Origin: Sphingopyxis sp. LC81
Lineage (GTDB): Bacteria > Pseudomonadota > Alphaproteobacteria > Sphingomonadales > Sphingomonadaceae
Assembly (NCBI RefSeq): GCF_000756375.1
Contig: NZ_JNFD01000030.1
Span: 62,001 to 126,000 of the forward strand
Direction: 5' to 3'
Length of the DNA stretch: 64,000 bases
Part shown: positions 3,791 through 18,923 of the stretch, in pieces
How positions within the stretch are numbered: position 1 is the stretch's first letter
Layout of the letters: each line of letters opens with the position of its first letter
Notes under the pieces: generated by a model
The model's database searches: none
What the model was told of the DNA's origin: nothing
Seen by the model: the letters and a program-made list of their open reading frames with translations, nothing else
Translations under genes and position numbers: made by a program

Positions 3791-3808
3791 AAACATAACA
3801 ATCGTTGT
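3791..3808. promoter_or_regulatory. Operator of the ACAANNNTTGT family (site 1)
   Basis: ACAA-TCG-TTGT at 3798-3808, inside AAACATAACAATCGTTGT. The left 11 bases recur at 7001-7011. It lies between the divergent amine-oxidase and Rid genes. Confidence 0.6.
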
Positions 3809-3884
3809 CTATTTGTCAAACGGGAAGCGGAGAGTGCGTTTTCGCCCGTCCCAGTCGGCTGGAACGATGCGCATATTTTTTACA

Positions 3885-3896
3885 CAACATATGTTG
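3885..3896. promoter_or_regulatory. Perfect 12-bp palindrome CAACATATGTTG
   Basis: Second palindrome in the amine-oxidase/Rid gap, about 97 bases before the Rid start. The half-sites resemble the ACAANNNTTGT family but the spacing is wider (6 rather than 3), so it is a related or independent operator. Confidence 0.45.
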
Positions 3897-3992
3897 CTAT
3901 ATTTATCCGATACCGATAGCTGACGACGGCAAGGCATCGCGTTCGATAATCCCGAGAGCCACTCGCGGCTCTCTTGCCAGAAGGACTGACAG

Positions 3993-4409
3993 ATGAGTGC
4001 ACCCGGCAAGAAGCAATCGTTCAATCCGCCCGGAACGCAGGCGTCGGCGGACAAATACCGGCTGTCGCAAGCGATGCGCGTCGGCGACATGATCTGGGTT
4101 TCAGGGCAGGTCGGCGTCACCGCCGAGCGGACGGTACCCGACGGCATCGAAGCGCAGACGCGCCTGACCTTTGAAAATCTGAAGAGAGTATTGGAATCGG
4201 CCGGCGCAACGCTCGACGATATCGTCGAGCTCACGCTGCTCCTGACCGACAACACAATCGATATGGCACCCTTTTACCGGGTGAAGGACGAGTATATCCG
4301 ACCACCCTATCCGGCGATCACCGGCTTCGGCGTATCGAGCCTCGCCCTGCCCGGCCTGTTGCTGGAAGTTCGCGCGGTCGCCGTCGCGGGATCCGCAGCC
4401 AACAAATAG
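3993..4409 (+). CDS. Rid-family (YjgF/YER057c/UK114) protein, first copy
   Basis: Protein of 138 residues with the Rid chorismate-mutase-like fold: 'VGDMIWVSGQVGV' near residue 30, 'RLTFENLKRVLESAGATLDDIVELTLLL', and 'LLLEVRAVAVAG' at the end. Archetypal RidA hydrolyses 2-aminoacrylate and other reactive imines using an arginine (Arg105 in E. coli) in a P-x-R motif. Here that stretch reads P-A-I-T, so the arginine is absent, as in other Rid subfamilies. Co-occurrence with two flavin amine oxidases suggests handling of an imine or related intermediate. AGAAGGA precedes the ATG. Confidence 0.9.
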   Translation: MSAPGKKQSFNPPGTQASADKYRLSQAMRVGDMIWVSGQVGVTAERTVPDGIEAQTRLTFENLKRVLESAGATLDDIVELTLLLTDNTIDMAPFYRVKDEYIRPPYPAITGFGVSSLALPGLLLEVRAVAVAGSAANK

Positions 4410-4486
4410 GCTGCCGATCGGGGGGCTCGCGTCGGAGATGCGGTGTCCGCTCGTTTCGGTACATGGGGCCGGCGCCTGACCGCCGC

Positions 4487-5155
4487 TCAGTTCGCGCGCG
4501 CGCTGTTCGCACCTTGTCCTTCCGCTCCGATAGCGACCCCGGCCGCGAGCAATGTCTCGAAATAATGCAGCATGACGGCTCTCTGACGGCTGGCGCCAAA
4601 AGTCTCGGGGCTGACGGTGCCATGCACCCCGACCCCTTCGAACAGGCAGAGCAGCGTGTCGGCCGCGAGGATCGGGTCGGTGTCCGCCCTTATGATCCCC
4701 CGCCCGATCAGCGACCGGATCATCATCGCCCACGCCTTGCGCCACCGATCGAAATCGGATGCGTAGTGCGCAGCTTTTTCGGGGTTCGGAAAGATATAGA
4801 CCAGAAAGGCGAAGAAGACCTTCCACCCGTCGCGGCTTTCCTCGTCATGCGGCAGCGTTGATGTCAGTGCGTCGACGAGATCACCAATTTGCGTGTCGGC
4901 CGGAAAACGTCCGTCATATTTCCCGTACCGGGTCGCATGGAGGACAAGGTCGAGTATCTCCTCCTTATTGCGAAAATGGTGCGTCAGCACGCCCGTCGTC
5001 GTGCCGAGTTCACGGGCAATCGCACGCATCGATGCCTTGTCGAAACCTTCGCGCGCGATGACCCGCCGGGTCGCGCGCAGCACCTCGAGCCTCCGCTCCG
5101 GCGGAGCCGCATCCGTTTCGCGGCGCTGCAACTTGTCACTGACTTTCCCGGCCAT
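4487..5155 (-). CDS. TetR/AcrR-family regulator (likely master repressor of the 2.3-18.9 kb regulon)
   Basis: Protein of 222 residues. The N-terminal helix-turn-helix is clear: 'RREVLRATRRVIAREGFD'-type helix 1 and 'MRAIARELGTTTGVLTHHFRNKEEIL' for helices 2-4, the BetI-like subgroup. The remainder is the helical ligand-binding domain. The start is set at ATG 5155 because GGGGAG lies 6 bases upstream; an ORF extension to 5203 has no such signal. A perfect ACAACTGTTGT lies at 5248-5258 in its own promoter, and the same motif precedes most surrounding operons, so it is the best candidate for the regulon repressor. It converges with the Rid gene. Ligand unknown. Confidence 0.9.
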   Translation of the reverse strand: MAGKVSDKLQRRETDAAPPERRLEVLRATRRVIAREGFDKASMRAIARELGTTTGVLTHHFRNKEEILDLVLHATRYGKYDGRFPADTQIGDLVDALTSTLPHDEESRDGWKVFFAFLVYIFPNPEKAAHYASDFDRWRKAWAMMIRSLIGRGIIRADTDPILAADTLLCLFEGVGVHGTVSPETFGASRQRAVMLHYFETLLAAGVAIGAEGQGANSARAN

Positions 5156-5247
5156 AAAAATCTCCCCGTCGGTCATGCCGAATAAGCGATAGCGGCTGAG
5201 CACGGTCGCTGGCTCGCCGGCATGAAAGGCGATTCGCCGACAGCATT

Positions 5248-5258
5248 ACAACTGTTGT
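5248..5258. promoter_or_regulatory. Operator ACAACTGTTGT (site 2, TetR promoter)
   Basis: Symmetric ACAA-CTG-TTGT, 93 bases upstream of the TetR start; suggests autoregulation. Confidence 0.6.
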
Positions 5259-5459
5259 CATATTGATGCGCCGAGTGGTTGGCAATCGCGGCCATATTTG
5301 CTCTGCGGAGGGCGAAGACGATTGAGAAACCCGAGAGATCATCGATCCTATAACACGGTTATACCACAATTTATCTGACATTCCACTAACGCGGCGCGCT
5401 CGACTCATGCGACCGCGATCCCGCGCCTTGACAAGAACGAGCCGCACCTCATAACAATG

Positions 5460-5470
5460 ACAACTGTTGT
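5460..5470. promoter_or_regulatory. Operator ACAACTGTTGT (site 3, MFS promoter)
   Basis: Identical 11-mer to site 2, directly followed by an AT-rich stretch that could hold the -10 of the MFS transporter gene starting at 5679. Confidence 0.6.
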
Positions 5471-5678
5471 TATTATAATTATCGCCGTAGTGAGCGGCGG
5501 GAGAGCGGACAATGCATCGTGCCGGTCGTCTCTATGGGAAATCGATGGCAAGAGCCGCGTCGCGGCTCCCGCTATGCCCCCGGTGCATGCGCGTGAATCT
5601 GAGACGGACCTGGGCGATGTCCCCAAGCCATGGGCTCGGACGTCATATCCGCACCGCTAGCGGTCGGAGCCTGCGATC

Positions 5679-6956
5679 ATGACCGGACGGATGCGCATCC
5701 CGACATATGATTTCGGCTGGAACGTCGTTGCGGTTCTCTTCCTCTGCACCGCGTCGCTGATGGGCACGTCGATCTACGGCTTCATCATGATCGCCGACAG
5801 CATGGCGCGAACGCACGGCTGGTCCGATATGGCCGCAGGCGGCCTCGTATCCGCCATGTGGCTCATCGCGCCGCTTGCCCTGTTCAGCGCGCCCGCGATC
5901 GAGCGCTATGGCCCGTGGCGACTGATCGTCGCGGGTCTATTGATCCTTGCCCTTGCCTTTGCCGGCCTCGCGATCGCCACGGAGTTCTGGCAAGTCTACG
6001 CGCTCCGAGTCCTGATGGGGTTCGGCAAGGTCGCGATCATGACGTCGGTCCCCGTCGTCGTGACGCGCTGGTTCGACCTTCGTTTCGGGACCGCTATCTC
6101 GATCGTATGGGCAGGAGGCAGCGCAGGCGGAATCGCCGTGGCGCCGCTCGTCGAATATCTCGACCGCACCGCGGGCTTCCAGTTCACCACCCTGGCTCTT
6201 GCCAGCGGGATCGCCGCCGTCGCCATGCTCGCGGCCCTGACCGCACGTGCGAAGCCGACGCCGCGTGCCACGGCGGCCCCGGCTTCCAAGGCCGGGCATG
6301 GCACGGAACGCGGAGATGGCGCAGTCCGTCCTGCCGACGCGAGCCGGGCGATTATCGCCTGCATCGTGGTAGCGACGACCGCGCTGGGCTGCGCCAATGT
6401 GGCTTTCCTCGCACTGAAGCCGCAGCTTTTCGGAAGCTTCGGATTCGACTCCCATACGACGGCGCTGATCGTGGGGTTCAATGCCGCCGCGTCAATGACC
6501 GGGGCCCTCGCAATCGGCTGGCTGACCGACCGCTTCGGTCTCGCCTGGCCGGGCGTCGCAGTCGGGGGCGTGTACCTCGCCGGCATGACGACCTACCTTT
6601 TCCTCACCGCCGCGCCGTTGACGTCGGTGGCGGTAATCGCGGCGATGCTTGCCGGTCTCGGCGGCGGCGCGGCGGAAGTTCTCTGGATGGGCCTCCTCAA
6701 GCGCGAGGCGAGCGGCCTGCGCTTCCCTGTGGTCTACGGCGCCTGGTATTTCGCGATCCAGGTCGGTTACGCCGTCGGCGGCTTTGTCGGCGGGTGGGCG
6801 CTGGCCCATCTCGGTGCCGCCGGGTTCATCCTCGTGGCAGCGCTTGCGTTCAGCGCGACGCCGCTGTTCTCGACCTGGCGATCGATACGGCTGTCCGACT
6901 GGGGCACCGGGCGTCCGGCGCCACCCGCCGAACCACGGGTCGCCGCTCTCAAATAA
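5679..6956 (+). CDS. MFS transporter (OFA/monocarboxylate-type)
   Basis: Hydrophobic protein of 425 residues with 12 predicted membrane segments in two halves split by a charged loop near residues 190-215. 'GFGKVAIMTSVPVVVTRWFDLRFGTAISIVWAGGSAGG' is the loop after helix 4 typical of the oxalate/formate antiporter-like MFS subgroup that moves organic anions. It is preceded by site 3 and followed by a TBDR with further copies of the operator, so it may take the TBDR's substrate or a breakdown product across the inner membrane. ATG 5679 is chosen; ATG 5691 is an alternative. Confidence 0.85.
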   Translation: MTGRMRIPTYDFGWNVVAVLFLCTASLMGTSIYGFIMIADSMARTHGWSDMAAGGLVSAMWLIAPLALFSAPAIERYGPWRLIVAGLLILALAFAGLAIATEFWQVYALRVLMGFGKVAIMTSVPVVVTRWFDLRFGTAISIVWAGGSAGGIAVAPLVEYLDRTAGFQFTTLALASGIAAVAMLAALTARAKPTPRATAAPASKAGHGTERGDGAVRPADASRAIIACIVVATTALGCANVAFLALKPQLFGSFGFDSHTTALIVGFNAAASMTGALAIGWLTDRFGLAWPGVAVGGVYLAGMTTYLFLTAAPLTSVAVIAAMLAGLGGGAAEVLWMGLLKREASGLRFPVVYGAWYFAIQVGYAVGGFVGGWALAHLGAAGFILVAALAFSATPLFSTWRSIRLSDWGTGRPAPPAEPRVAALK

Positions 6957-6961
6957 TATCA

Positions 6962-6973
6962 TGACAATTGTTA
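6962..6973. promoter_or_regulatory. Operator TGACAATTGTTA (site 4, TBDR promoter)
   Basis: Near-perfect palindrome around ACAATTGT, just after the MFS stop and 119 bases before the TBDR start. A compact variant of the ACAANNNTTGT family. Confidence 0.5.
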
Positions 6974-7000
6974 TTTTAACTGTAACACAGGTGCGCATTG

Positions 7001-7018
7001 AAAACATAACAACCGTCA
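7001..7018. promoter_or_regulatory. Operator half-site (site 5, TBDR promoter)
   Basis: AAACATAACAACCGTCAT shares its first 11 bases exactly with site 1 (3791-3801). The right half is degenerate. Confidence 0.45.
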
Positions 7019-7091
7019 TGGAAATCCGTTCACGGGTCCGTGACCGCTCCTCAGGCGGGACGTGATGAAGCATCGATAAGGGAGACTAGCG

Positions 7092-9638
7092 GTGATTAAA
7101 CAGCAAGCATTCGCGGCGCGCCGTCGCAAGGCAGTCCTCGGGACCACGGGTTGCATGATGGCCCTGACGGCCGTGTTGTCGACCACCCCGGCGATGGCGC
7201 AGGACTCGGCGCAGGCATCGGAACCTTCCGGCGATGGCGACATCATCGTGACCGCGAGCCGCCGCGAGCAACGGGTCACAGACCTCCCATTCAACATCTC
7301 CGCCTATGGCGGCGAGCAGATCGAGCGCGCCAACATCAGCAGCGTCGCGTCACTCACAAGACAAGTTCCCAACTTCAATATCGTCGATGCCGGCGCGCGC
7401 ACGGCAGCGGCGCAGATTCCGATCATCCGCGGCCTCAACGCGTCGCAGACCAGCACAAACGCCGCGCGCTATTTCCAGTCGCCCGTCGGCTTCTATTCCG
7501 GCAATGCGCCGGTAACAGGCTCTTTGCCGCTCTATGACATCTCGCGCGTCGAGGTTCTGCGCGGCCCGCAGGGCACCCTCTATGGCGCCGGGTCGCTGTC
7601 AGGCGCGGTCCGCGTCGTGCCAACCGATCCCAAGCTTGGCGAAGTGAGCGGATCGGTTACCGGCTCGGTCGGCAAGCTCTCGCATTCGAAGGACCCGTCC
7701 TACGCCTTCGGCGGCATCGTCAACCTGCCGGTCGGCGACACGATCGCGATCCGATTGGTCGCGAGGCAGGAACATCAGGGCGGCTTCATCGACACCCGCG
7801 ACGTGCTGAAACGTCAGGGCGACAGCTATATCACCGGCGTGCCGGTTCTCGCCAATACGGCGGACGTCGCCAACAGCCCCGCCGTCTACTTCACCGAGAA
7901 GGATTATAATTACGCCGACACGACGTTCGCGCGCGCGGCGATCCGCTGGGAACCGAGCGACGATTTCTCGGTCGGCCTCGCCTATAATTTCGCCAAGTCC
8001 AAGGGTGTCGGCGGCAATATCGACAATGACAGCTTCGGCGGCGGCCCCTCGCCGCTCGATCCGCGCATCCAGCTCGAGCCGACCGGCGAATATGAGCGCT
8101 CGGTCCCGATGCTCGAACCCTGGAACCGGCGGACCGAACTGGCGTCGCTTGATGCAAGCTACGATCTCGGGTTCGCGACGGTCTCGGCGACGGTCGCCTA
8201 TGGCAAGACCAGGGGCCGATCGTCGAACGACTCCACGGTCAGCCTCCTCGGCTCACCCTACGGCTTCTTCTACACGGGCGCGCCGGCGAACCCGCGCGCG
8301 GTGATCCCGGTCGCCAACAACGACCGCGACCAGTCGTGGACCGAGGAACTGCGGATCGTGTCGAAGGAAGGCGGCTTCATTGACTACACCGCCGGCGTCT
8401 TCCTGCAGCAGCAGAAGCGACGGATCGACCTCGTTGTCTATGCGCCCGGTGCCGGCGAGCAGAGCTTCGCGGCGGGTGGCAGCCGGACCCCGATCTACCA
8501 GGGCTATTTCGGGCTTCCGGACGCGACCTATATCCCGACGCTTGCCGATGGAACGGCCTACAGCCAGATCACCCACCAGAAGTTCCGGGAAGTTTCCTTC
8601 TTCGGGGACGTCACGCTCAATCTCAGCGACAACTGGTCTGTCACCGGTGGCGCACGCGTCTTCAAGCAGAAATTCTCGTCCAATCTGAACTCGTTCAGCA
8701 CCCTTTTCGCCCCTCCGGGGTCGCCGGAGGTCGACGGGGTCGGCGTGCAGTCACGCAGTTCGTCAAACGCCACCAAGGGAACCGATCAGATCTTCAAGGT
8801 GAACACGTCGTACAAGCTCAGCGGCGGCGGGCAGGTTTATGCGACCTTCTCGCAGGGCTTCCGCCGCGGCGGCGCGAACGCCTTCTCGACGCCCGCGGAC
8901 AACCCGATCATCTTCGAACCGGCCCAGCTGCTGACCTACAAACCGGACCGGACCAACAATTTCGAGGTTGGCATCAAGGGCTCGATGTCACGCATCTACT
9001 ATTCGCTCAGCGCCTTCTACGTCGACTGGAAGAATCCGCAGATCGACCTGCAGACCCCATTCAATCTCTTCCCGGTCGTGGTGAATGGATCGAAGGCGGA
9101 ATCGAAGGGGTTCGAGCTTGAGCTGTCGGGACCGATCGCGGTCGACGGGTTGAGCTTCAATCTTGGTCTTGCCTATGCGCGCGCACGCCTCAGCGAAGAC
9201 TTCGGCCTGCCGGCGGGCGACGGCGGCGGGAGTGAGGTCCCGAACGCGATCAGGGGCGCCAAGGGCGACCAGTTGCCGGGGGCGCCGGACTGGAGCGGCG
9301 CGGGCTCGCTGACCTACCGGCACGCGGCCGGGAAAGGCGAGATGACCTATAATCTCGGCTTCGATTTCCGAAGCGGGACATGGAACCAGCTTCGCAGCCA
9401 GAGCACGAACACCCCGGCCAGCAAGCAGTCAGGCTATATCATGTTCAACGGCAGCATCGGCTATGCGATCGACGACTGGAACATCGAGCTTTACGGCACC
9501 AACCTGCTCGACAAGCGGGCGGTATACACCGCCAACCTCCGGACGCTGAACTCGATCGCGACGCTCGGCAACTGGGGCAATGCCTATTCGGTCTCGCGCC
9601 CGCGCGAAGTCGGCATCCGCCTCAGCAAGAGCTGGTAA
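7092..9638 (+). CDS. TonB-dependent outer-membrane receptor
   Basis: Protein of 848 residues. The signal peptide is a basic N-terminus, a hydrophobic core (residues 14-32) and cleavage after AMA-Q (about residue 36). The TonB-box/plug region starts 'GDIIVTASRREQRVTDLP', and 'RVEVLRGPQGTLYGAGSLSGAVRVV' marks the plug. A 22-strand barrel follows, ending in an aromatic residue (SW). The start is GTG 7092 with AAGGGAGA upstream. Sphingomonad receptors of this type import many organic substrates. It lies behind two operator copies and is probably the outer-membrane entry point of this module. Confidence 0.93.
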   Translation: MIKQQAFAARRRKAVLGTTGCMMALTAVLSTTPAMAQDSAQASEPSGDGDIIVTASRREQRVTDLPFNISAYGGEQIERANISSVASLTRQVPNFNIVDAGARTAAAQIPIIRGLNASQTSTNAARYFQSPVGFYSGNAPVTGSLPLYDISRVEVLRGPQGTLYGAGSLSGAVRVVPTDPKLGEVSGSVTGSVGKLSHSKDPSYAFGGIVNLPVGDTIAIRLVARQEHQGGFIDTRDVLKRQGDSYITGVPVLANTADVANSPAVYFTEKDYNYADTTFARAAIRWEPSDDFSVGLAYNFAKSKGVGGNIDNDSFGGGPSPLDPRIQLEPTGEYERSVPMLEPWNRRTELASLDASYDLGFATVSATVAYGKTRGRSSNDSTVSLLGSPYGFFYTGAPANPRAVIPVANNDRDQSWTEELRIVSKEGGFIDYTAGVFLQQQKRRIDLVVYAPGAGEQSFAAGGSRTPIYQGYFGLPDATYIPTLADGTAYSQITHQKFREVSFFGDVTLNLSDNWSVTGGARVFKQKFSSNLNSFSTLFAPPGSPEVDGVGVQSRSSSNATKGTDQIFKVNTSYKLSGGGQVYATFSQGFRRGGANAFSTPADNPIIFEPAQLLTYKPDRTNNFEVGIKGSMSRIYYSLSAFYVDWKNPQIDLQTPFNLFPVVVNGSKAESKGFELELSGPIAVDGLSFNLGLAYARARLSEDFGLPAGDGGGSEVPNAIRGAKGDQLPGAPDWSGAGSLTYRHAAGKGEMTYNLGFDFRSGTWNQLRSQSTNTPASKQSGYIMFNGSIGYAIDDWNIELYGTNLLDKRAVYTANLRTLNSIATLGNWGNAYSVSRPREVGIRLSKSW

Positions 9639-9670
9639 TCGAAGGTCGGCCGAATGCCACCGGCATCAGG

Positions 9671-9697
9671 AACGGCGCGCGGCCTACGCGCGCCGTT
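9671..9697. terminator. Terminator between TBDR and sulfotransferase
   Basis: AACGGCGCGC (9671-9680) pairs with GCGCGCCGTT (9688-9697): 10-bp perfect stem, 7-nt loop, between convergent genes. Confidence 0.6.
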
Positions 9698-9703
9698 TCC
9701 GTA

Positions 9704-11149
9704 TCAGCTCCCCGCGCTCCGTGTCCTTCGTGGATCTATGCCGGCCGCCTCCAACGCATCGGCGAGCGGCCGGAGATGCCGCTCATAATTGCGCCAGCGG
9801 CCTGCGGCGGTCCGATAGATCGGACGGCGGATCTGAACCGCGCTGGCGGTGGCCGACGCCGTCCGGTTCCGCTCGATCCGGACCATGGCATCGTCCCATC
9901 CAACGCCCATGTGGCCTGCGATCCGCTGGCCAGTCTCACGCGGGTCGCATACGACATCTTCATAGGCGACCTCGAGGAGCTGCGTCCCCGCCACAGCGCG
10001 CCAATGATCGAGGAGGCCGCTGTAAGCGCGATAATAGGCCGCCAGGTCGCCAAGCGAATAGCTGAACGGATAGGCACTCCCGAAGAGCGTCGAGTACATG
10101 GCAAACAGATTGTCGAGCGGGGCGCGGTTTACCAGCAACGTCCGGGCGCCGGGCATCGTCAGCCGGATCGCGCCTACGTAGAGATAGTTGAACGGCAGCT
10201 TCTCCAGAATCACGTCGCCCGCCGCCGGCGTTCCCGCGCGCCGGGCATAGGCTGACAGAACGCGCGCAGGATCGGCGTTGGCGACGCGCTCGAAGATATC
10301 GCCTCCGTCCGCCGCTGCTCCTTCGGCAAGCGCGCCGAAAAGATTCTCGGTCTCGCCGTTGCTTCGCGCCTGCGGGGCTCCGGTGAGGATCCGCTCGATC
10401 ATGGTCGTGCCCGATCGCGGCAGTCCGACGATGAAGCCATAGCGCGGCGGTGTCAGTTCGGGCGCTTGCGCGATGCGCACCGCATCGAAACTCTCCACGA
10501 TGCGCCCAAACTTCCACACATCGTCCGCGACATCGTACCGCAACATCTCCCGCCGCGTCTTCGCGCCGGCCGAGAAATGATCGAAGGCGGCGTCATAGTC
10601 GCCGAGATCGTCATGCTCCTTGCCGAGCGCATAGTGCAAATAGACGGCCGCACCCGGCTCGTTTGATGCTCGTGCAAGCATCGCCCGCAGCTCATCGATA
10701 TGATTGCGGTCCGCGGCCTGATTGCGAAGCTGCGAGCGAAACATCGCGGCCTCAACCATGTCCGGCGACAGACGAAGCGCCTGGTTGCTGGCTTCTTCGG
10801 CTGCCTCCAATCGTCCGATGTTCCGTTCGCCGGTCGCCAGATTATACCATGCGAGCGCGTCGCCCGGTCGGGCCTCGACCACTTTTGCATACCAGTCGCG
10901 CGATCGCTGGTGCGCTCCGGCCTCGAACGCGGCGAAGCCGAGCGCCTCGCTGTCTTCGGCCGTCCCTTGCGCCATTGCGGCAAGCTCTTCGATCAGCGTC
11001 GCCGCCCCGGGATGGCGGCCAAGCGCGCGCAATATCTGCACCGCGACCGCGTGATCGCGCGACGCACAATGCCTCTGCGCCCCACTTGCAAGATGAACCG
11101 CGAGCGCCGCTTCAAGCTCGGCCTGCCGGGGATGCGTACCGGGCGACAC
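9704..11149 (-). CDS. TPR-domain sulfotransferase
   Basis: Protein of 481 residues. The N-terminal half (about 1-200) is helical with TPR-like repeats ('ALAWYNLATGERNIGRLEAAEEASNQALRL' style). The C-terminal half is a sulfotransferase with the PAPS-binding loop 'GLPRSGTTM' at 242-250. The family moves a sulfuryl group from PAPS to a hydroxyl or amine; TPR fusions often modify peptides or polysaccharides. GTG 11149 is preceded by AAGGGAG. It is divergent from an MFS gene across an operator half-site. Its link to catabolism is unclear: it might conjugate or detoxify the substrate. Confidence 0.85.
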   Translation of the reverse strand: MSPGTHPRQAELEAALAVHLASGAQRHCASRDHAVAVQILRALGRHPGAATLIEELAAMAQGTAEDSEALGFAAFEAGAHQRSRDWYAKVVEARPGDALAWYNLATGERNIGRLEAAEEASNQALRLSPDMVEAAMFRSQLRNQAADRNHIDELRAMLARASNEPGAAVYLHYALGKEHDDLGDYDAAFDHFSAGAKTRREMLRYDVADDVWKFGRIVESFDAVRIAQAPELTPPRYGFIVGLPRSGTTMIERILTGAPQARSNGETENLFGALAEGAAADGGDIFERVANADPARVLSAYARRAGTPAAGDVILEKLPFNYLYVGAIRLTMPGARTLLVNRAPLDNLFAMYSTLFGSAYPFSYSLGDLAAYYRAYSGLLDHWRAVAGTQLLEVAYEDVVCDPRETGQRIAGHMGVGWDDAMVRIERNRTASATASAVQIRRPIYRTAAGRWRNYERHLRPLADALEAAGIDPRRTRSAGS

Positions 11150-11212
11150 AGTCTATCGCTCCCTTCGCAATTCAAATGTCGCCAAGCCCAAATCGTCGCT
11201 TCCCTTTTTCGA

Positions 11213-11224
11213 GACGATTGTTAT
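11213..11224. promoter_or_regulatory. Operator half-site (site 6)
   Basis: GACGATTGTTAT; on the minus strand it reads ATAACAATCGTC, matching the TAACAATCGT of site 1. It lies 64 bases upstream of the sulfotransferase start and 144 upstream of the MFS start. Confidence 0.45.
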
Positions 11225-11367: not shown

Positions 11368-12582
11368 ATGACGGACGCCGTGGCAGCGCCCGAGTTGGCG
11401 ACCGCACCCGCGCGCTATTCCGGATTCTCGGCCGGAGCGCTTTGGTCGGTCGGAATCCTCCTTCCCAACATCCTGTCGATCATCTTCCAGGCGACGCAGC
11501 AGAGCCGCGGTATCGGCGCGGGCGACCTCGGCACGCTTGGCGCGGCCTTTGTCCTCGGCCGCGGCATTGTCATCGGCACGGCCCCGTTCTGGGTTTACCG
11601 AACAAATCCGCGGCAGATCACCGCCGGCGCGATCATCGCGACCGTGGCTGCGCTTATGGCCGTTGTTTTCCTCATCGGCACCAACCGGCTCGGACTGGGC
11701 TGGTTCATCGTCGGGCTGACGAGCGGCTGCGTCGCGCCTCCCGCCTATACCGCGCTCGGCAATGCGCGCGATCCGCTGCGATCCTATAGCATCGCGCTCT
11801 TCGGATCATCGCTCATTGCGGCAATCGTCGCCTATCTCCTCCCCACCCTTATCGTCCCTCACTATGGCGAGAAGGGTGTACTGATCGTGATTGCGGCGCT
11901 GTTTCTCGTCGCGCTCCCTTGCGCATGGGCGCTGCGCGACACGCAATTCGTCGGCAAGAGAAATGCGCCGTCCGCACTATCGGGGAAGGACGCGCCCTCC
12001 ACTGGATCGGGCCGATACGCCGCACCGGTGATCGCGGCCATCGCCGGAGCGGTCTTCACGGGCGTCTTCATGGGAGGCGCCGGCGCCTTCGTCGCATCTA
12101 TCGCGGCAGCGAACGGTATCGGAGCCAAATCGGTCGGCCTGTTCGTCGCCTTTGCCTTGATGGCATCTCTCGTGGGGGCACTCACTCCCTCCATCGTCGG
12201 CAATCGCATGTCGCCGATAGCAATGATCGGCGTGGCGACCGCCGGGATCATTGCCAGCTATGCCGGCATGACCAGCGCTTCGCCGTTGATATTTGGCGCC
12301 GGCTATGTCGCGCACGCGATATTCGCGACCATCGGCTATGTCTATTTCCTCGGTGTCGTGCGGTCACTCGACTTCACCGACCGCATTTATGTTGCCTACC
12401 CCGCGATGGACGCCGCCGCCTTTGCAGCGAGTGCGGAACTTGCCGGCGCCCTGCTTTCGCGCTCGACGCCGACGGCGCTGTTCCTGATCTCCGCCGTCTT
12501 GATGGTCATCTGCTGGTTCGCTGCAGTCGCCGCGAGCCGGATCGCGGCATCGGGCAGCCCAGCCGCCCTCGAACCAATTTGA
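11368..12582 (+). CDS. MFS transporter
   Basis: Hydrophobic protein of 404 residues with about 12 membrane segments. A polar central loop (about 195-215, 'RNAPSALSGKDAPSTGSG') separates the halves. ATG 11368 is chosen because the coding-like hydrophobic pattern starts just after it; the frame is open far upstream but that part is arginine-rich and antisense to the sulfotransferase gene. It is followed after 16 bases by a thioesterase with its own ribosome site. Substrate unknown; probably moves a pathway compound across the inner membrane. Confidence 0.8.
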   Translation: MTDAVAAPELATAPARYSGFSAGALWSVGILLPNILSIIFQATQQSRGIGAGDLGTLGAAFVLGRGIVIGTAPFWVYRTNPRQITAGAIIATVAALMAVVFLIGTNRLGLGWFIVGLTSGCVAPPAYTALGNARDPLRSYSIALFGSSLIAAIVAYLLPTLIVPHYGEKGVLIVIAALFLVALPCAWALRDTQFVGKRNAPSALSGKDAPSTGSGRYAAPVIAAIAGAVFTGVFMGGAGAFVASIAAANGIGAKSVGLFVAFALMASLVGALTPSIVGNRMSPIAMIGVATAGIIASYAGMTSASPLIFGAGYVAHAIFATIGYVYFLGVVRSLDFTDRIYVAYPAMDAAAFAASAELAGALLSRSTPTALFLISAVLMVICWFAAVAASRIAASGSPAALEPI

Positions 12583-12598: not shown

Positions 12599-13111
12599 AT
12601 GAAGGAGCCGCCCTATGGCCTCGAAACGCCCAATCTCGACGCGCCGTTCGACGTCTTTCGCGGAACGGTCCTGAACGCCTGGACCGACTGGAACGGGCAT
12701 ATGAACGTCGGTTACTATGTCGTCGCGTTCGATCACGCGACCGGCCAGATATTCAACAATCTCGGCCTTCCCTACGAATATACGAGCAACAAGATCGGCA
12801 TGTATTTCGTGCTTGAGGCGCATGTGAATTATGTGAGCGAAATGAAGGAGGGCGACGGCTTCAGCGTCCGGAGCCAGATTCTCGACCACGACCACAAGCG
12901 CGTCCATCTATTTCACACGATGTTCGCGGAGGACGACGGACGGCTCGTTGCCACCAATGAGCTGATGCTGATGAATATCGACTATGCCTCGCGTCGTTCG
13001 GCGCCTTGGCCCGACTGGGCGATGCAGCGCATCGAGGCGATGGCGGCCGCGCATTCCGCGCTGCCGCGGCCAAGCCAGATGGGCAACCTCATCGCAATAC
13101 GCAAATCCTGA
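12599..13111 (+). CDS. Acyl-CoA thioesterase, hot-dog fold (4-hydroxybenzoyl-CoA/betainyl-CoA thioesterase-like)
   Basis: Protein of 170 residues. 'WTDWNGHMNVGYYVVAFDHATGQIF' is the catalytic helix region of the hot-dog thioesterase family, with Asp31 and His35 in the D-x-N-x-H-x pattern (here D-W-N-G-H-M-N). The closest family resemblance is to thioesterases linked to carnitine/betaine metabolism, although that assignment is not certain. Start ATG 12599 follows ACGGAG. It is probably co-transcribed with the MFS gene. It would release a free acid from a CoA thioester made by upstream steps. Confidence 0.85.
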   Translation: MKEPPYGLETPNLDAPFDVFRGTVLNAWTDWNGHMNVGYYVVAFDHATGQIFNNLGLPYEYTSNKIGMYFVLEAHVNYVSEMKEGDGFSVRSQILDHDHKRVHLFHTMFAEDDGRLVATNELMLMNIDYASRRSAPWPDWAMQRIEAMAAAHSALPRPSQMGNLIAIRKS

Positions 13112-13178
13112 GACACGTTGGCCCGAACGCAGCGAGGCGGCGGCTCGCAAGCCGCCCCTCGAACGAAAGCCAATAGTA

Positions 13179-13955
13179 TCAGACGCGGGCGCGGATCGTC
13201 ATGCCGCCGTCGACGACAATGCCCTGCCCGTTGACGTAGCGGCCAGCGTCCGACGCCAGGAACAGGGCGGTCCCGGCGATCTCTTCGGGCTCGCCGATGC
13301 GTCCGAGCGGAACGGCGTGCCGAAGCGCCGCTTCGGCTTCCGGATCTTCCCAAAGGGCTCGCGCAAAATCGGTGCGGATGACGCCGGGCGCGATCGCATT
13401 GACGCGAATATTCTGCCGCCCGAGTTCGAGCGCGAGATTGCGAACCAGCTGGAAGTCGGCCGCCTTCGATATGTTGTAGGCGCCGATCGTATCCGAGGCG
13501 ATCAAACCGCCGACCGAGGACACGATTATGATGGCGCCCGAATGTCGCGCCGCCATTTCGGGCGCGACCATCGTGATGAGCCAGTGGTTGGACAGGACAT
13601 TATTGTCGAAAATCTTGCGGAACTGCTCGTCGCTGATCCCCGCCATCGGCCCGTAATAGGGATTGGTCGCCGCGTTGCAGACCAGAATGTCGATCGGCCC
13701 GAATTGCTCGCGGGTGCGATCGACCAGATGCTGCAGCGCCTCTTTGTCGGAAATGCTGGCCGCCACCGCGAGAGCGCGGCCCGCACCGAACTTCGCTTCG
13801 ATCTCGGCGGCCACAGCGTCGCAGGCATCTTGCTTGCGGCTCGATATCACCACGCGCGCCCCGGCCTCGGCAAAGGCCTCCGCGATCGCGCGGCCGATAC
13901 CCCGGCTCGAGCCGGTTATGACCGCGGTCTTGCCGGAGAGATCGAACATTTTCAT
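13179..13955 (-). CDS. Short-chain dehydrogenase/reductase (SDR)
   Basis: Protein of 258 residues with a classical SDR layout: 'TGSSRGIGRAIAEAFAEAGARVV' for NAD(P) binding, 'LVCNAATNPYYG' (NNAG-like), 'IIIVSSVGG' with the catalytic Ser, and 'YNISKAA' with the catalytic Tyr/Lys. 'VNAIAPGVIRTDFA' and 'YVNGQGIVVDGGMTI' complete the fold. ATG 13955 is chosen for the GAAGGAC upstream and the typical 'MKMFDLSGKTAVITG' start; the frame is open to 14063. It lies downstream of the second Rid gene in the same direction. It would oxidise or reduce an alcohol/ketone intermediate. Confidence 0.9.
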   Translation of the reverse strand: MKMFDLSGKTAVITGSSRGIGRAIAEAFAEAGARVVISSRKQDACDAVAAEIEAKFGAGRALAVAASISDKEALQHLVDRTREQFGPIDILVCNAATNPYYGPMAGISDEQFRKIFDNNVLSNHWLITMVAPEMAARHSGAIIIVSSVGGLIASDTIGAYNISKAADFQLVRNLALELGRQNIRVNAIAPGVIRTDFARALWEDPEAEAALRHAVPLGRIGEPEEIAGTALFLASDAGRYVNGQGIVVDGGMTIRARV

Positions 13956-14065
13956 GGCCAGTCCTTCATGTCGGGGAACGAGGGAAAAGCCGCGTGCGAG
14001 GCGGCGTGCCCCTGCCGCCTCGCACGCGCCGGGTGGGAGAGTGCCCCGGATCGAGATTGGCAAGT

Positions 14066-14473
14066 TCAGGCCGCGCCGGAGTCCGCCACGGCGACAACGC
14101 GGATTTCGACCTTATACTCGGGCGCCGCGAGCTGGGTGACGCCGATGGCGGTCCAGCACGGATAATCTTTCGGAAAATAGACGTCCTTCACCTTGACGAA
14201 GTCGGCGATTTCCCCGCGCAAATCGGTGTGGAAGCTCATCAGCTCGACGACATCGGCAAGGCTTGCGCCCGCGGCCTCGAGCGTCGCCTTGATCGCCTCG
14301 AAAGCGAAGCGTGCCTGCTCTTCCATATCCTTGCCGGCGACAAAATTGGCATCGATGCCGACCTGGCCCGAAAGCCAGATCCGGTCCCCGACGCGGGTCG
14401 CCGGAGCGAAGTGATAATTGTCGTAGAGGGGCTGCGCGCCCGCCGGGACAATCTGTTGCCGCTTGTCGCTCAT
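14066..14473 (-). CDS. Rid-family protein, second copy
   Basis: Protein of 135 residues with the Rid core: 'VGDRIWLSGQVGIDANFVAG', 'ARFAFEAIKATLEAAGASLADVVELMSF', 'VEIRVVAVAD'. The catalytic-arginine position of archetypal RidA is a tryptophan here (P-C-W-T), so it is not a standard imine deaminase. GAGGAGA precedes the ATG. It is clearly related to the copy at 3993 but well diverged, so the two are not a recent duplication. It is first in an operon with the SDR and is divergent from the DAO-type oxidase across operator site 7. Confidence 0.9.
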   Translation of the reverse strand: MSDKRQQIVPAGAQPLYDNYHFAPATRVGDRIWLSGQVGIDANFVAGKDMEEQARFAFEAIKATLEAAGASLADVVELMSFHTDLRGEIADFVKVKDVYFPKDYPCWTAIGVTQLAAPEYKVEIRVVAVADSGAA

Positions 14474-14584
14474 ATTCGTCTCCTCTCAATGCCGCGCGAG
14501 CGTCGGAGGCGGTAAATTTCCTCGCCACGCTGCGCCCTCGATTCGGCCGATAGATCACCCCGTAGCGCCTCTCGACGAATTAAT

Positions 14585-14595
14585 ACAACATTTGT
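14585..14595. promoter_or_regulatory. Operator ACAACATTTGT (site 7)
   Basis: ACAA-CAT-TTGT between the divergent Rid/SDR operon and the oxidase gene, 71 bases from the oxidase ATG. Confidence 0.6.
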
Positions 14596-14666
14596 TTTGT
14601 AAATTAGGTGCACTGTGCGATAGTGCCGGTCGAATTGAGGAAATGCTGTAAAACGGGAGGGTCATC

Positions 14667-16040
14667 ATGACGGCCGAACATGCTTCAACACGCGAGCGGG
14701 CGAAGTCCGCGATCGCCAGATATCGCCCGATCGGGGGCTGGGTCGAACAGCCCGCCGACCGTCAGCCGCGCCTGACCGGGAATGTCGAGGCCGACGTCGT
14801 TATCGCTGGCGGCGGTTTCGCCGGTCTCTCGGCCGCACTCGAACTGACCGCGGCGGGTGCGAAGGTGGTGCTTCTCGAACGCGACTTCTGCGGCTTCGGT
14901 GCCAGCGGCCGGAACGCGGGCTATCTGTCGGGCGGCCAAGGCCTGAAGTTCGGACTCTTCGCCAAGCGTCTCGGCGACGAGAAAACCCGCGAGATCACCC
15001 GCTTTTACCAAGAGGGCGTCACCTATGTGGAGGAGCGCCTTCGAAAATACGGGATCGACTGCGACTATTTGCAGACCGGCCTGCTTCGCGCCGCCATCCA
15101 CCCCTCGCAGCGAGCGCCGCTTCGCGAGAAGATGGAAGCCGGCGTCCGCTATGGCGCGCCCGCGACCTTCCTCGAATCCGACGAACTGCGCCGCCGCGGC
15201 ATTCCGCCCGCTTTCCTTTGCGCCGTGCACACCCCCAATGGCGGCACGCTCCATCCCGGCAAATATGTCATGGGGCTCCGGCGCGCGGCGATCGAAGCCG
15301 GGGTAAGGATCTTCGAGGACAGCGCCCTTCTGTCGTGGGACGAAGGAAGGCGGATCACCTGCCGAACGGCTGGCGGAACGGCGCGAGCACCGTTTCTGGT
15401 CCTCGCGACCAATGCCTACACACCCGGACTTGGCGCCCTTGGAAACAGGATCAGCCCGATCCGGGTGTCCGGCCTCGAAACCGAACCGCTTTCAGCGGAA
15501 CAGCTGGCGGCGCTCGGATGGGCCGGACGCGAGGGGATTGTGACCCCGCACATCACCATGGAGAGCCATCGCCTCACCGTCGACAACCGGCTCGTGCTCA
15601 CAACGAAGCGGATCGATTATCTCTATGGATCGCGAACACCGAACGAACCGGACGAGACGGCCTATCGGGCGCTCGCCGAAGCGCTGTACACGCGCTTCCC
15701 GATGATCGGCGATGTTGCGATCAATGCATGCTGGAGCGGCTATATCAGCCTCGCGCAAGATGGACTTCCGGTCGTCGGCGAAACGGGCGGGAACGCCAAT
15801 ATTCTCCACACGGCAGGTTGTAGCGGGCACGGTGTCGGCACCCAGTCGCTGATCGGGCGCTTGCTTGCCGAGCATATCGGCGGAAGCAAACCTCCTCTGC
15901 TGGCAGCCATCCGCCACGCGACACCGCGCGTTCCGCCGGAGCCTGCGCGCTGGATCGGTCTCAAGTCTGCACTTCGTGCCGCTGACCTGATGGACGCCCG
16001 CGTCGATCGCAAGGCGCGCAGCCGCGCGCAGGCTAGATAG
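14667..16040 (+). CDS. DAO-family FAD oxidase (gamma-glutamylputrescine-oxidase-like)
   Basis: Protein of 457 residues. The FAD fold 'ADVVIAGGGFAGLSAALELT' starts near residue 42, after an N-terminal arm ('RYRPIGGWVEQPADRQPRL') usual in PuuB-like oxidases. 'GFGASGRNAGYLSGG' follows, and the C-terminus has 'TAGCSGHGVGTQSLIGRLLAEHI', the flavin-closing motif. Family members oxidise secondary amines or gamma-glutamyl-polyamines to imines or aldehydes. GGGAGG precedes the ATG. Together with the amine oxidase at 2359 it makes amine oxidation the most likely chemistry of the module, by inference. Confidence 0.88.
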   Translation: MTAEHASTRERAKSAIARYRPIGGWVEQPADRQPRLTGNVEADVVIAGGGFAGLSAALELTAAGAKVVLLERDFCGFGASGRNAGYLSGGQGLKFGLFAKRLGDEKTREITRFYQEGVTYVEERLRKYGIDCDYLQTGLLRAAIHPSQRAPLREKMEAGVRYGAPATFLESDELRRRGIPPAFLCAVHTPNGGTLHPGKYVMGLRRAAIEAGVRIFEDSALLSWDEGRRITCRTAGGTARAPFLVLATNAYTPGLGALGNRISPIRVSGLETEPLSAEQLAALGWAGREGIVTPHITMESHRLTVDNRLVLTTKRIDYLYGSRTPNEPDETAYRALAEALYTRFPMIGDVAINACWSGYISLAQDGLPVVGETGGNANILHTAGCSGHGVGTQSLIGRLLAEHIGGSKPPLLAAIRHATPRVPPEPARWIGLKSALRAADLMDARVDRKARSRAQAR

Positions 16041-16089
16041 CAAGTGTCATGATAATTGAGTCTCCGGGAAATATCGTTACGCTGAGGCG

Positions 16090-16764
16090 ATGAGCGAAAC
16101 CGGAACCGCAACGCGCACCGCCGTCACCGAACGTCCTGCAACCAAGGCCGCGACACGCGGCCGACGCGGGAGACCTGTCGGCGACCGCGAGGCGCAGCGC
16201 ACGAAATTGCTGCGCGCCGGGATCAAGGTCATCGCCGACGAGGGCTATGCCGGTGCCTCTCTCCGCAAGGTTGCCAAGCAGGCGGGCCATACGACCGGCG
16301 CGATCACCTATTATTTCGCCGACAAGGAAGAGATGGTCGGCGCGATCATCGAATTCATGTTCGACGGGTTCGACTCGATGCTCGATTCGGGCGACGAGGT
16401 CGCCGACCATCGCAAACGGCTCAAGCGCTGGGTCGAGCTCAACTCGAACTCCGATGGCTGGATCGCAGGCTTTCAGCTCCTCGCCCGGGCGCGGCACGAG
16501 CCCAAGTTCGCGGCCATCTATGCCGACCGCTATTCGCGTTACCGCGAACGCCTCGCCGGCATTCTCGCGAAGCAACAGGCCGCGGGCGATGTGCGCAACG
16601 ACATATCGCCCGACATCCTCGCCGATCTGATCGGGTCGATTGCCGACGGCTGGACGATCATGCTGCCGATCGAAATCGAACGCTTCGCGCCCGAACGCGT
16701 CGACGCACTCATCGACGCCATCATCAAACTGCTGCAACCGCCCGTGGCGGCGCGGAAAGGCTGA
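16090..16764 (+). CDS. TetR/AcrR-family regulator
   Basis: Protein of 224 residues. A basic low-complexity N-terminus of about 35 residues (TKAATRGRRGRPVG) precedes the helix-turn-helix 'LLRAGIKVIADEGYAGASLRKVAKQAGHTTGAITYYFADKEEM'. It is BetI-like, as is the TetR protein at 4487, and may share its operator class. No copy of ACAANNNTTGT was found in its own 49-bp leader, and it follows the oxidase gene closely, so it may be co-transcribed. Whether it or the 4487 protein binds the repeated operators is open. Confidence 0.88.
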   Translation: MSETGTATRTAVTERPATKAATRGRRGRPVGDREAQRTKLLRAGIKVIADEGYAGASLRKVAKQAGHTTGAITYYFADKEEMVGAIIEFMFDGFDSMLDSGDEVADHRKRLKRWVELNSNSDGWIAGFQLLARARHEPKFAAIYADRYSRYRERLAGILAKQQAAGDVRNDISPDILADLIGSIADGWTIMLPIEIERFAPERVDALIDAIIKLLQPPVAARKG

Positions 16765-16810
16765 GGAACGAGCCTTGCTCGCGCCGCCGACGAGCGGCGA
16801 CCAGTATGCT

Positions 16811-17650
16811 TCAGACCATCTGCGCGAAGACCGGTGCGCGGAACGGCGCGCCGGGCTCCATCTGGGCGATCTCTTTCTTGAACAGATTGCCGTTACGCTC
16901 GTAGCCCGACCTGCTGATGCCGGGCAGCGGGCTGAAGGTCGCATCGTCCCCAAAGAAACGGAAGACGAGCGTGTGGCGCTCGGGGCAATCGGCATCGATG
17001 TTGGCGCCGCCGTGGAGCGAGCCGGGATGCAGGAAGAGCACGTCGCCCGGCTCGGTCGCCCAGGAGAGAATGTCATATTTGCCCGGATCGGCCTTGCGCT
17101 CGGCCTCGATGTCGGGAAGGCGCGGCAGCGCGTCGCCGCCGTGCAGCGGGTCGGTCGGATCGGCCGGGCTGAAGGTCGTGCCGTCGTAGAGCTGCCCGCG
17201 GTGCGAGCCGCGAATAATCTCGAGACCATTTTTCTTGGGAACCGAGCCGAAGCTGATCCAGGCATTGCCCCAATGGTGACCGGCCCACGGCAGATAGGAC
17301 GTATCCTGATGCCAGTAGGTGCGCGTGCCCTCGCCGCCTGCCTTCAGGAACACTTCCTCAGCGAAGTACCAGACATTCTTCGACCCCCAGAGCTCGGCGA
17401 ACAATTTGCCGAACGGAAGCGTCGCCACCAGCTCGTCGAGGCGTTCCTTGGCATGCGGATTGGCGTTGTCGACGTGCGACTTCACATGCTGCTTCTGGTC
17501 GCCGCGATACAGCCCGTGGCCGTTCGGGCCGGGGTTGGCGACGATCCAGTCATAGACCTCGCGGCATGCCGCGAGCTGCTCGGCATTGAGCACATTCTTC
17601 ATCAGAACTGCGCCGTCCTCGAAATAGGCCTTCCGCACCGATTCTTCCAT
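16811..17650 (-). CDS. Phytanoyl-CoA dioxygenase (PhyH)-family Fe(II)/2-oxoglutarate oxygenase
   Basis: Protein of 279 residues. The metal triad is visible: 'YWHQDTSY' with His114 and Asp116, and 'LHPGSLHGGANI' with His213. A distal arginine for 2-oxoglutarate lies in 'RHTLVFRFFGDDA'. Family members hydroxylate acyl-CoA chains or small lipophilic molecules next to a carbonyl. GGGAG precedes ATG 17650. The promoter carries operator site 8. It is a monocistronic unit converging with the TetR gene. Confidence 0.9.
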   Translation of the reverse strand: MEESVRKAYFEDGAVLMKNVLNAEQLAACREVYDWIVANPGPNGHGLYRGDQKQHVKSHVDNANPHAKERLDELVATLPFGKLFAELWGSKNVWYFAEEVFLKAGGEGTRTYWHQDTSYLPWAGHHWGNAWISFGSVPKKNGLEIIRGSHRGQLYDGTTFSPADPTDPLHGGDALPRLPDIEAERKADPGKYDILSWATEPGDVLFLHPGSLHGGANIDADCPERHTLVFRFFGDDATFSPLPGISRSGYERNGNLFKKEIAQMEPGAPFRAPVFAQMV

Positions 17651-17710
17651 GTTCCGCTACTCCCGATAACTGTCGCGACTCTCGATAGCCGAAACCTAGC
17701 TATTTTGCAA

Positions 17711-17731
17711 ACAATTGTTGTGTTAATTAAC
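17711..17731. promoter_or_regulatory. Operator ACAATTGTTGT plus GTTAATTAAC palindrome (site 8)
   Basis: ACAA-TTG-TTGT at 17711-17721 overlaps a perfect AACAATTGTT, and abuts a second perfect palindrome GTTAATTAAC at 17722-17731. It lies 61 bases upstream of the PhyH start. Confidence 0.6.
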
Positions 17732-17756
17732 AATGCCGGAAATGCCCGCATCTCCG

Positions 17757-18641
17757 TCACATCTCGAGCTTGCATCCGCGCGCGACGAGGATCGGCCGCA
17801 TTTCCCAGTACGCGGCCGGCGTCCGCGTCAGCGGGATGTAGGGGTGAAGGTGATGGACGATGTGGAACTGCATTCCCATCGAGCCGATATTGCCGACCTT
17901 GGACCGCCAGTTCTTGGTGTCACGGTAGCGCCCCTCCTGCATGCCGGGGCTGTGCGGCGCGTAGGAGAGGAAGAAGTTCGTATAGGTGGCGGCGATCTGA
18001 TAGGGCAGCCACCATAGGAAGAACGCCTCCAGCGCGTGCCCCGTCCAGGCGAGGGCGATCAGAATCCCGAAATAGGCGAGCCGATAGACGAGCGTCAGCC
18101 GGATCAGGTCTTCGCGCTTCGATCGGGCCAGACAGCCCAGATAGTCGCCGACCCGCTTCGCGCCGGGCTGGCGCTGCTGGATCGAGACCCATATCGCCGA
18201 CAGCGGACCATCCGCATGATTGGTGATATCGGGATCGAGGTCGGGATTGTTCGAAAAGCGGTGGTGGTCGAGGTGCGTGACGCGCAGCACTTCGAAGGGA
18301 TACAGAAACATCCATGAGGTGGCATGGCCGACGAGCTCGTTCAGCCAGTGCCATCTCGTCCCCGGCCGCCCGATGATGTGATGCTGCGCCTCGTGCGTCG
18401 GCAGATAGACGAGCGATATGTTGAGGCTCGCGATGACAAAGCCGAGCCACAGCGGAATGACCTCCAGGAAAACGAGCGGCCAGAGCGCAAGCCAGCAGAG
18501 AAGATTGGCAAAGGCCCAGGCGACGATTCCCCAAGGAACCATGCCGCTGTGCTTCTGCGCGATCTGGCGCTCGAGCCGGACGAGTTCGGCGTTCGAAAGG
18601 CCCGTAAGATCGACAGCCGTCATCTGCTGCGACGCGCTCAT
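17757..18641 (-). CDS. Membrane fatty-acid desaturase/hydroxylase
   Basis: Integral membrane di-iron enzyme of 294 residues. The three histidine boxes are present: HEAQHH (83-88), HLDHH (123-127) and HIVHH (260-264), with hydrophobic segments at about 35-80 and 185-225. Such proteins desaturate or hydroxylate acyl chains or carotenoid-like rings using O2. The start ATG 18641 overlaps the TGA of the upstream small gene (ATGA), indicating translational coupling. A longer frame to 18677 exists but lies inside that gene. The promoter with operator site 9 is upstream of the small gene. Confidence 0.88.
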   Translation of the reverse strand: MSASQQMTAVDLTGLSNAELVRLERQIAQKHSGMVPWGIVAWAFANLLCWLALWPLVFLEVIPLWLGFVIASLNISLVYLPTHEAQHHIIGRPGTRWHWLNELVGHATSWMFLYPFEVLRVTHLDHHRFSNNPDLDPDITNHADGPLSAIWVSIQQRQPGAKRVGDYLGCLARSKREDLIRLTLVYRLAYFGILIALAWTGHALEAFFLWWLPYQIAATYTNFFLSYAPHSPGMQEGRYRDTKNWRSKVGNIGSMGMQFHIVHHLHPYIPLTRTPAAYWEMRPILVARGCKLEM

Positions 18642-18826
18642 ATCCAGCGCCCCGTAATCGAAGCCAGAAGCCCCCATCCCCCGCCAACCGCAAGGCCGAC
18701 AGCGAGACGCTGCTCCGGATCCAGAAGTCCCGCCACCGCCATAGCTTGGGCAAAAAGCGGCGCGAGAAATCCGATGCCGAAGACCAGCGGCAGAATCCGG
18801 GTCAGATATTTGAGAGTGGCTTCCAT
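18638..18826 (-). CDS. Small two-helix membrane protein coupled to the desaturase
   Basis: Protein of 62 residues, unrecognised. Two hydrophobic stretches are visible: residues 10-32 (ILPLVFGIGFLAPLFAQAMA, trimmed) and about 41-58 (glycine-rich LAVGLAVGGGWGLLA). GGAGAAGGG precedes the ATG. The stop overlaps the desaturase start by four bases. It could be an accessory or assembly subunit of the desaturase; this rests on position alone. Confidence 0.7.
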   Translation of the reverse strand: MEATLKYLTRILPLVFGIGFLAPLFAQAMAVAGLLDPEQRLAVGLAVGGGWGLLASITGRWI

Positions 18827-18912
18827 CTTCCCTTCTCCAAATTCGCCAGCGTTGGATTGCCGCCGATCGTGGGTGTCGATGAAGCTTCCTTTATCCGATT
18901 CCCACTTTTAAG

Positions 18913-18923
18913 ACAACGATTGT
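18913..18923. promoter_or_regulatory. Operator ACAACGATTGT (site 9)
   Basis: ACAA-CGA-TTGT, 87 bases upstream of the small membrane protein start. It is the rightmost copy of the motif. Confidence 0.6.

Follow-up and report, generated by a model that had tools for sequence, protein, structure and literature searches.

Local TetR repressors of catabolic clusters are a well-known kind of system. KstR, a TetR-family regulator of mycobacterial lipid and cholesterol catabolism, has the operator TAGAAC-N2-GTTCTA and a predicted regulon of 83 genes in M. smegmatis (PMC1995591, excerpts). MbdR, also of the TetR family, controls 3-methylbenzoate catabolism in Azoarcus, with the operator ATAC-N10-GTAT and 3-methylbenzoyl-CoA as its inducer (PMC4424350, excerpts). 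Here we describe a locus of Sphingopyxis sp. LC81, in the 64,000-nt stretch of DNA that was analysed (contig NZ_JNFD01000030.1, positions 62,001–126,000; hereafter the window). In the window, a 15-kb stretch of degradation and uptake genes, which we call the module, carries a repeated palindrome, ACAAC-N-GTTGT. From sequence comparison we strongly favour the palindrome as the operator of TetR-A, a 222-residue TetR protein encoded within the module (4487–5155, minus strand, ATG at 5155), which would repress the module.

In its exact form, ACAANNNTTGT (ACAA-N3-TTGT), the palindrome occurs six times in the window, at 3798, 5248, 5460, 14585, 17711 and 18913, where 0.13 copies are expected, and none of 100 shuffled windows reached six. 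An initial annotation of this DNA had listed these six copies, and all lie at the coordinates that it gave. They are confined to 3798–18923; the remainder of the window has no exact copy. Because the motif might have been picked after the fact, we took a census of all 3,328 four-base palindromes with spacers of 0–12 in the intergenic DNA of the module (nine stretches, 2,411 bases). ACAA-N3-TTGT came out on top with six copies in five stretches, and the second-placed palindrome has three copies.

It is an established approach to compare the promoter of a regulator gene between species (PMC10858194, excerpts), and this is where the link to TetR-A comes from. Relatives of TetR-A are rare: they were found in 1 of 297 other genomes of the family (E 1e-20), 2 of 395 of the order (E 1e-18, one identical to the family match) and 3 of 384 of the class (E 1e-18). 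The six closest relatives found, with 33–38% identity, belong to two genomes of the same family (G269 and G390), one of the same class (G652) and three plasmids, from Ochrobactrum quorumnocens and two Nostoc strains. All six have the 17-nt site ATNACAACNGTTGTNAT before tetR; its core starts 61–92 nt from the start codon used, compared with 103 nt in the window. A palindrome before the regulator's own gene and conserved with it, a feature of the TetR family, is thus seen in the window and in about four other lineages. A second copy of the operator lies at the 5′ end of a flavin-monooxygenase-like gene in G269 and G390, and each Nostoc promoter has two copies. The palindrome of the initial annotation is real, and the site conserved in the relatives is longer. 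At three loci a saccharopine-dehydrogenase-like gene (PF03435) and the gene of the TetR-A relative are divergent, on either side of the operator (L090 10368–11591, L088 10694–11863 and L091 2206–3486).

The motif-bearing proteins also resemble each other in the stretch that we take, from the family, to be the recognition helix. This likely helix stretch reads TTGVLTHHF in TetR-A, TTGVLTHYF in G269, G390 and Ochrobactrum, TTGVLSHYF in G652 and STGVVTHYF in Nostoc, and SMRAIA together with a TetR-A-like helix stretch is common to the aligned motif-bearing relatives (five rows, without the second Nostoc). The second TetR protein of the module, TetR-B (16090–16764, plus strand), has SLRKVA and TTGAITYYF at the same stretches. 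Among seven further relatives of TetR-A (G873, G777, two on Streptomyces plasmids, Novosphingobium P6W, G914 and G1169), ACAACNGTTGT was found in none; for the Streptomyces and P6W proteins the match was to the G390 TetR and not directly to TetR-A, and the G1169 gene has an internal stop. The plasmid records matching the G390 TetR that were examined are 8 of 31: Ochrobactrum, two Nostoc, two Streptomyces, Novosphingobium P6W and two with TetR-B homologues (Cupriavidus P-10 and P. aeruginosa H15). When the phylum was searched with five aligned motif-bearing TetRs, three matches came up besides the genome of the window itself, the distant TetR-A-like proteins of G914 and G1169 and a TetR-B homologue in G1276, and the motif is absent from all three. 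Nor does ACAACNGTTGT occur anywhere in 63 distant loci from a contig scan with TetR-A (25–47% identity over partial segments), two of which (L080 and L081) have the AT-rich ACAAAATTTGT 276 nt upstream. Near tetR in G269 and G390 lies the same transposase-like gene (L085 12790–13506 and L090 11653–12369), presumably resembling an IS6-type element; this common gene suggests that the regulator moves.

A matrix built solely from eight sites outside this genome recovers the same places when run over the window. Its top 14 positions make up ten places (overlapping registers merged), all in 3792–18913, and the next, at 37256, scores 5.8. The highest scores fall on the two sites between tetR-A and the transporter gene MFS1: 28.6 for ATGACAACTGTTGTTAT in the MFS1 promoter (5457–5473), which fills the spacer of a predicted −35/−10 pair at 5451–5479, and 23.9 for ATTACAACTGTTGTCAT in the promoter of tetR-A itself (5245–5261). 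The other eight places score 9.0–17.3. Candidate operators are ATAACAATCGTTGTCTA (3795–3811, score 10.9), between the amine oxidase gene AmOx (minus) and RidA (plus), with its core in the spacer of the predicted AmOx promoter at 3819–3792; AATACAACATTTGTTTT (14582–14598, score 12.9), between RidB (minus) and DAO (plus); CAAACAATTGTTGTGTT (17708–17724, score 11.1), before PhyH (minus); and AAGACAACGATTGTTCT (18910–18926, score 10.8), before the small-protein/desaturase unit (minus). Before the TonB-dependent receptor (TBDR) gene there is a variant around ACAATTGTTAT (6958–6977, one mismatch, at 6964), which scores 17.3 and 13.7 in two registers, and a half-site, ATAACAACCGTCATGGA (7006–7022, with ACAACCGTCAT at 7009), which scores 9.0. 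A weak half-site (11208–11224, with ACGATTGTTAT at 11214; score 4.3) lies between the sulfotransferase (minus) and MFS2 (plus) genes. The initial annotation had placed the three variants at 6962, 7001 and 11213; they exist, with positions one to eight bases off. Its statement that the motif precedes nearly every transcription unit holds for AmOx, TetR-A, MFS1, TBDR, RidB and DAO (which share a site), PhyH and the small-protein/desaturase unit, and is weak for the sulfotransferase, MFS2 and RidA. Two weaker candidates are additional to that annotation: ATAGCAAGTGTCATGAT (16037–16053, score 11.8), between DAO and TetR-B, an uncertain site whose core is unlike ACAACNGTTGT, and the uncertain palindrome CAACATATGTTG before RidA (3884–3900, score 12.1). 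The latter was rejected as a regular operator since its half-site spacing differs.

The initial annotation had raised the question of whether the motif is equally frequent elsewhere, and it is not. The genome (4,397,290 bases in 48 contigs) contains 15 exact copies of ACAANNNTTGT compared to 14 for a reversed-pattern control, so there is no overall enrichment; six of the 15 lie within 15.1 kb. At the outside rate the probability of at least six is about 1e-12, a value that is too extreme, as the sites themselves set the interval. The pattern ACAAYNRTTGT has eight exact copies, five of them in the module, and 93 with one mismatch compared to 79 in the control. Scored with the extended-site matrix, the six copies in the module reach 10.8 to 28.6 and the nine outside copies of ACAANNNTTGT −9.4 to 1.6. 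Of these nine, eight are inside open frames of more than 200 aa, and the ninth (L002) is ambiguous. The exact motif is thus concentrated in the module and at background level outside it.

The 17-nt site ATNACAACNGTTGTNAT is present twice without mismatch in the genome, in both cases between tetR-A and MFS1. No place matches it with one or two mismatches and 41 places do so with three, of which five are in the module; the total of 43 matches compares with 27 for the reversed control. This was a search by pattern matching, which sites more than three mismatches from the 17-mer escape. Among the 36 three-mismatch places outside the module we examined the 16 best, and 15 of these lie in stop-free frames of at least 262 aa; the same frame test on the module gives 74–197 aa at six places and 531 aa at 17708. 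The remaining one of the 16, ATAACGATTGTTGTCTT on contig C43 (G000:C43:10574–10590; L094 5574–5590), lies about 87 nt before a gene for a PQQ-dependent dehydrogenase of the methanol/ethanol family (L094 3301–5487, minus strand), and this alcohol dehydrogenase is a possible member of the regulon outside the window. As judged from these matches, the regulon looks confined to this locus, perhaps with the addition of one outlying gene.

The MFS1 and AmOx promoters named above are the two best predicted in the module (10/12 each). The operator core lies in the spacer between the −35 and −10 boxes of both, which makes repression the best reading. The AmOx layout, TTGACA-5 nt-core-TATGTT, has a counterpart in TTGACA-5 nt-core-TATTTT at the saccharopine-dehydrogenase-like gene of Ochrobactrum. 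The core begins at +8 from the predicted −35 box in these two cases and also at tetR and the saccharopine-dehydrogenase-like gene of G390, where the boxes are poorer. In the mechanism that we propose, a TetR-A dimer would bind ATNACAACNGTTGTNAT, and likewise the weaker forms of this site, inside or across the −35/−10 region and would there block RNA polymerase. Acting at about seven good places in all, TetR-A would repress tetR-A itself together with the units for the amine oxidase, MFS1, TBDR, RidB/DAO, PhyH and the small protein and desaturase. It would be released by an inducer, most probably the substrate or an intermediate of amine/imine or acyl type. We infer the binding by a dimer and, from the TetR family, KstR and MbdR, the repression, the autoregulation and the release by a ligand; the operators of KstR and MbdR also overlap promoter boxes. 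Since the sites are strong at tetR-A and MFS1 and weaker at the enzyme genes, repression may be graded.

Several observations weigh against TetR-A as repressor of the whole module through this palindrome. The six close relatives amount to about four lineages besides the window, since G269 and G390 are near-identical and the two Nostoc strains alike. G777 and G914 have a fairly similar helix, STGVLNHYF, and no motif, so the helix stretch alone is not decisive. With up to one mismatch allowed, ACAANNNTTGT has nine places in the window (eight in 3798–18923 and one at 56307) where 4.9 are expected, and 5 of 100 shuffles reach this number; the loose form is thus not significant window-wide. Simulated 64-kb sequence of the same trinucleotide make-up yields about one position scoring at least 10, with a maximum of 16.0 in 20 runs. 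Single weaker sites are therefore not compelling alone, unlike the ten positions at nine places within 15 kb, which are. The 16 best outside places score 10.8–15.4 and so overlap the module sites other than the tetR-A/MFS1 pair, which do not stand out in the genome by score alone, and the frame filter that set 15 of them aside is imperfect, as the 531-aa frame at 17708 demonstrates. The sulfotransferase and MFS2 have only a half-site in common, and RidA has the 3798 site in common with AmOx, 185 nt from the RidA start; none of these three has a good site of its own. Taken together, the predicted promoters barely exceed chance (5 found compared to 3.6 expected), and the best boxes predicted at most of the other module sites are weak, with a different placement.

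A second regulator may act beside the first. TetR-A would then work through the palindrome and TetR-B through a different operator on a subset comprising DAO, RidB and PhyH, giving control by two signals. This is compatible with TetR-A as the binder of the palindrome, and we consider it nearly as likely as not. TetR-B adjoins DAO, and its relatives are found near DAO, PhyH and RidB homologues in several genera. Homologues of DAO, RidB, PhyH and TetR-B occur together, wholly or partly, in G498 and on plasmids of Cupriavidus, Caballeronia, Pseudomonas aeruginosa and Rhodococcus, and PhyH and DAO homologues also on Burkholderia records. Against control by both proteins, no exact four-base palindrome (spacer 0–12) common to at least three of seven TetR-B upstream stretches was found as a candidate operator. 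Clusters of DAO, RidA, PhyH and TetR-B homologues (L104, L105, L106 and the G498 region) recur on large Cupriavidus and Caballeronia plasmids and partly in Pseudomonas aeruginosa, and DUF1329 and RND-transporter genes adjoin such clusters in the two annotated records.

That TetR-B itself binds the palindrome is very unlikely. It is encoded inside the module, has the same Pfam domains as TetR-A and is directly preceded by the weak candidate site at 16037. Its homologues lie near the enzyme homologues in other bacteria, which they may regulate by way of another site. However, for none of seven TetR-B homologues is ACAANNNTTGT present, whether upstream or elsewhere in the scanned loci (G498, three Cupriavidus, Pseudomonas aeruginosa H15 and Rhodococcus, with 42–55% identity, and G1276 with 48%; plasmid records with TetR-B homologues, five of seven scanned). 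It is also absent from 167,004 bp in four regions with homologous enzymes (G498, Caballeronia NK8, P. aeruginosa p12939-PER and Cupriavidus oxalaticus), and the helix stretch of TetR-B differs. The cross-species comparison thus supports the initial annotation in its choice of the TetR at 4487 as likely regulator over the one at 16090. A regulator encoded at another place, or the nearby HxlR protein (520–1008), is very unlikely to be what reads the palindrome: the HxlR gene is 2.8 kb from the nearest site and a first look at the genome gave 20 other TetR-like candidates, but the motif goes with close TetR-A relatives in about four other lineages. Clustering by chance or as a by-product of AT-rich intergenic DNA, for which the weak matches in simulated sequence and the non-significant one-mismatch form could be adduced, is hardly credible given six copies for 0.13 expected, the first rank among 3,328 palindromes and the recovery of the same places by a matrix from other species.

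The enzyme genes have the motif in this genome, but across the regions scanned it goes with TetR-A and not with the enzymes, which suggests that DAO, PhyH and RidB were perhaps brought under TetR-A in this genome. We raise, tentatively and with more doubt than conviction, the further idea that a mobile pair of regulator and operator took over a catabolic module, the operator being laid over DAO, PhyH and RidB. This idea arises because TetR-A-type regulators with the operator are on plasmids in bacteria as distant from each other as Ochrobactrum and Nostoc, and the enzyme homologues elsewhere lie near TetR-B, in regions of which the four scanned are without the motif.

In TetR-A (scanned as the stretch 4487–5203) the N-terminal helix-turn-helix domain TetR_N (PF00440) scores 54.6 bits against a cut-off of 24 and the C-terminal ligand-binding domain, TetR_C_6 of the BetI type (PF13977), 63.9 bits against 27. 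On the minus strand are AmOx, of the flavin amine oxidase family (2359–3699, PF01593), the TPR-sulfotransferase (9704–11149, PF13469), an SDR oxidoreductase (13179–13955, PF13561), the second Rid-family protein RidB (14066–14473, PF01042), the PhyH-family protein (16811–17650, PF05721) and a fatty-acid desaturase family protein (17757–18641, PF00487), whose unit opens with a small 62-aa open reading frame lacking a Pfam match (18638–18826). The plus strand encodes the Rid-family protein RidA (3993–4409, PF01042), MFS1 (5679–6956, PF07690), TBDR (7092–9638, PF00593 and PF07715), the transporter MFS2 (11368–12582, PF07690 at 27.8 bits, below the Pfam cut-off of 33.4), a thioesterase family protein 3′ of MFS2 (12599–13111, PF13279) and the FAD oxidoreductase DAO (14667–16040, PF01266). 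Between RidB and SDR, on the minus strand, a 15-pair G+C-rich hairpin is followed by a T-rich stretch (13991–14028), and the SDR may for this reason be expressed less than RidB from their common promoter. A MerB-domain protein (PF03243) is encoded near the TetR-A locus both here (1594–2259) and in G390 (L090 7695–8441); no exact palindrome copy precedes the gene in the window.

A substrate of the module was sought through protein families and solved structures, and none follows from them. DAO has no PDB match at E 1e-10, AmOx matches a monoamine oxidase over residues 9–82, and for the PhyH protein a threshold of E 0.001 leaves MysH dioxygenases, which are linked to the mycosporine pathway, as the sole relatives with a solved structure (E about 1e-12, residues 7–151). 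An amine or amino-acid-like substrate is suggested by the genes present (for an amine oxidase, two Rid proteins, the DAO oxidase, a thioesterase, an SDR, the PhyH protein, a TonB receptor and two MFS proteins) and by the saccharopine-dehydrogenase-like neighbours of three TetR-A relatives.

Within the openly licensed papers searched, as titles and abstract starts, we found no description of a TetR with this operator. An apparently uncharacterized TetR subfamily, represented in the family and class of the window and on Ochrobactrum and Nostoc plasmids, would thereby gain a testable operator, and some 13 genes of unknown substrate would be tied to one switch. A screen of compounds for the release of TetR-A from the 17-bp site could then help to find the substrate. 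The locus may also be a case of enzymes passing from the clusters of one regulator to those of another.

Among known systems, TetR-A shares with the choline-binding repressor BetI the TetR_N domain and the BetI-type C-terminal Pfam domain; it scores 34.3 bits against the equivalog cut-off of 201.3 for TIGR03384 and 32.6 against 118 for NF001978, below both. The likeness to KstR lies in a TetR repressor whose own gene and many catabolic units are preceded by one and the same palindrome, an AAC...GTT core, a motif that partly overlaps the −10 region and its discovery by cross-species alignment of the regulator's own promoter (PMC1995591). The sites here do not match the KstR operator (PMC1995591): their AAC and GTT halves are one base apart and flanked by AC and GT, and the regulon looks limited to one locus, perhaps with one outlier. 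Likewise, the sites resemble ATNACAACNGTTGTNAT and do not match the operator of MbdR (PMC4424350). In its arrangement the locus nevertheless resembles the MbdR system, in which a local TetR repressor controls one catabolic cluster from several sites within it and the operators span the transcription start site and the −10 boxes, and once also the −35 box (PMC4424350).

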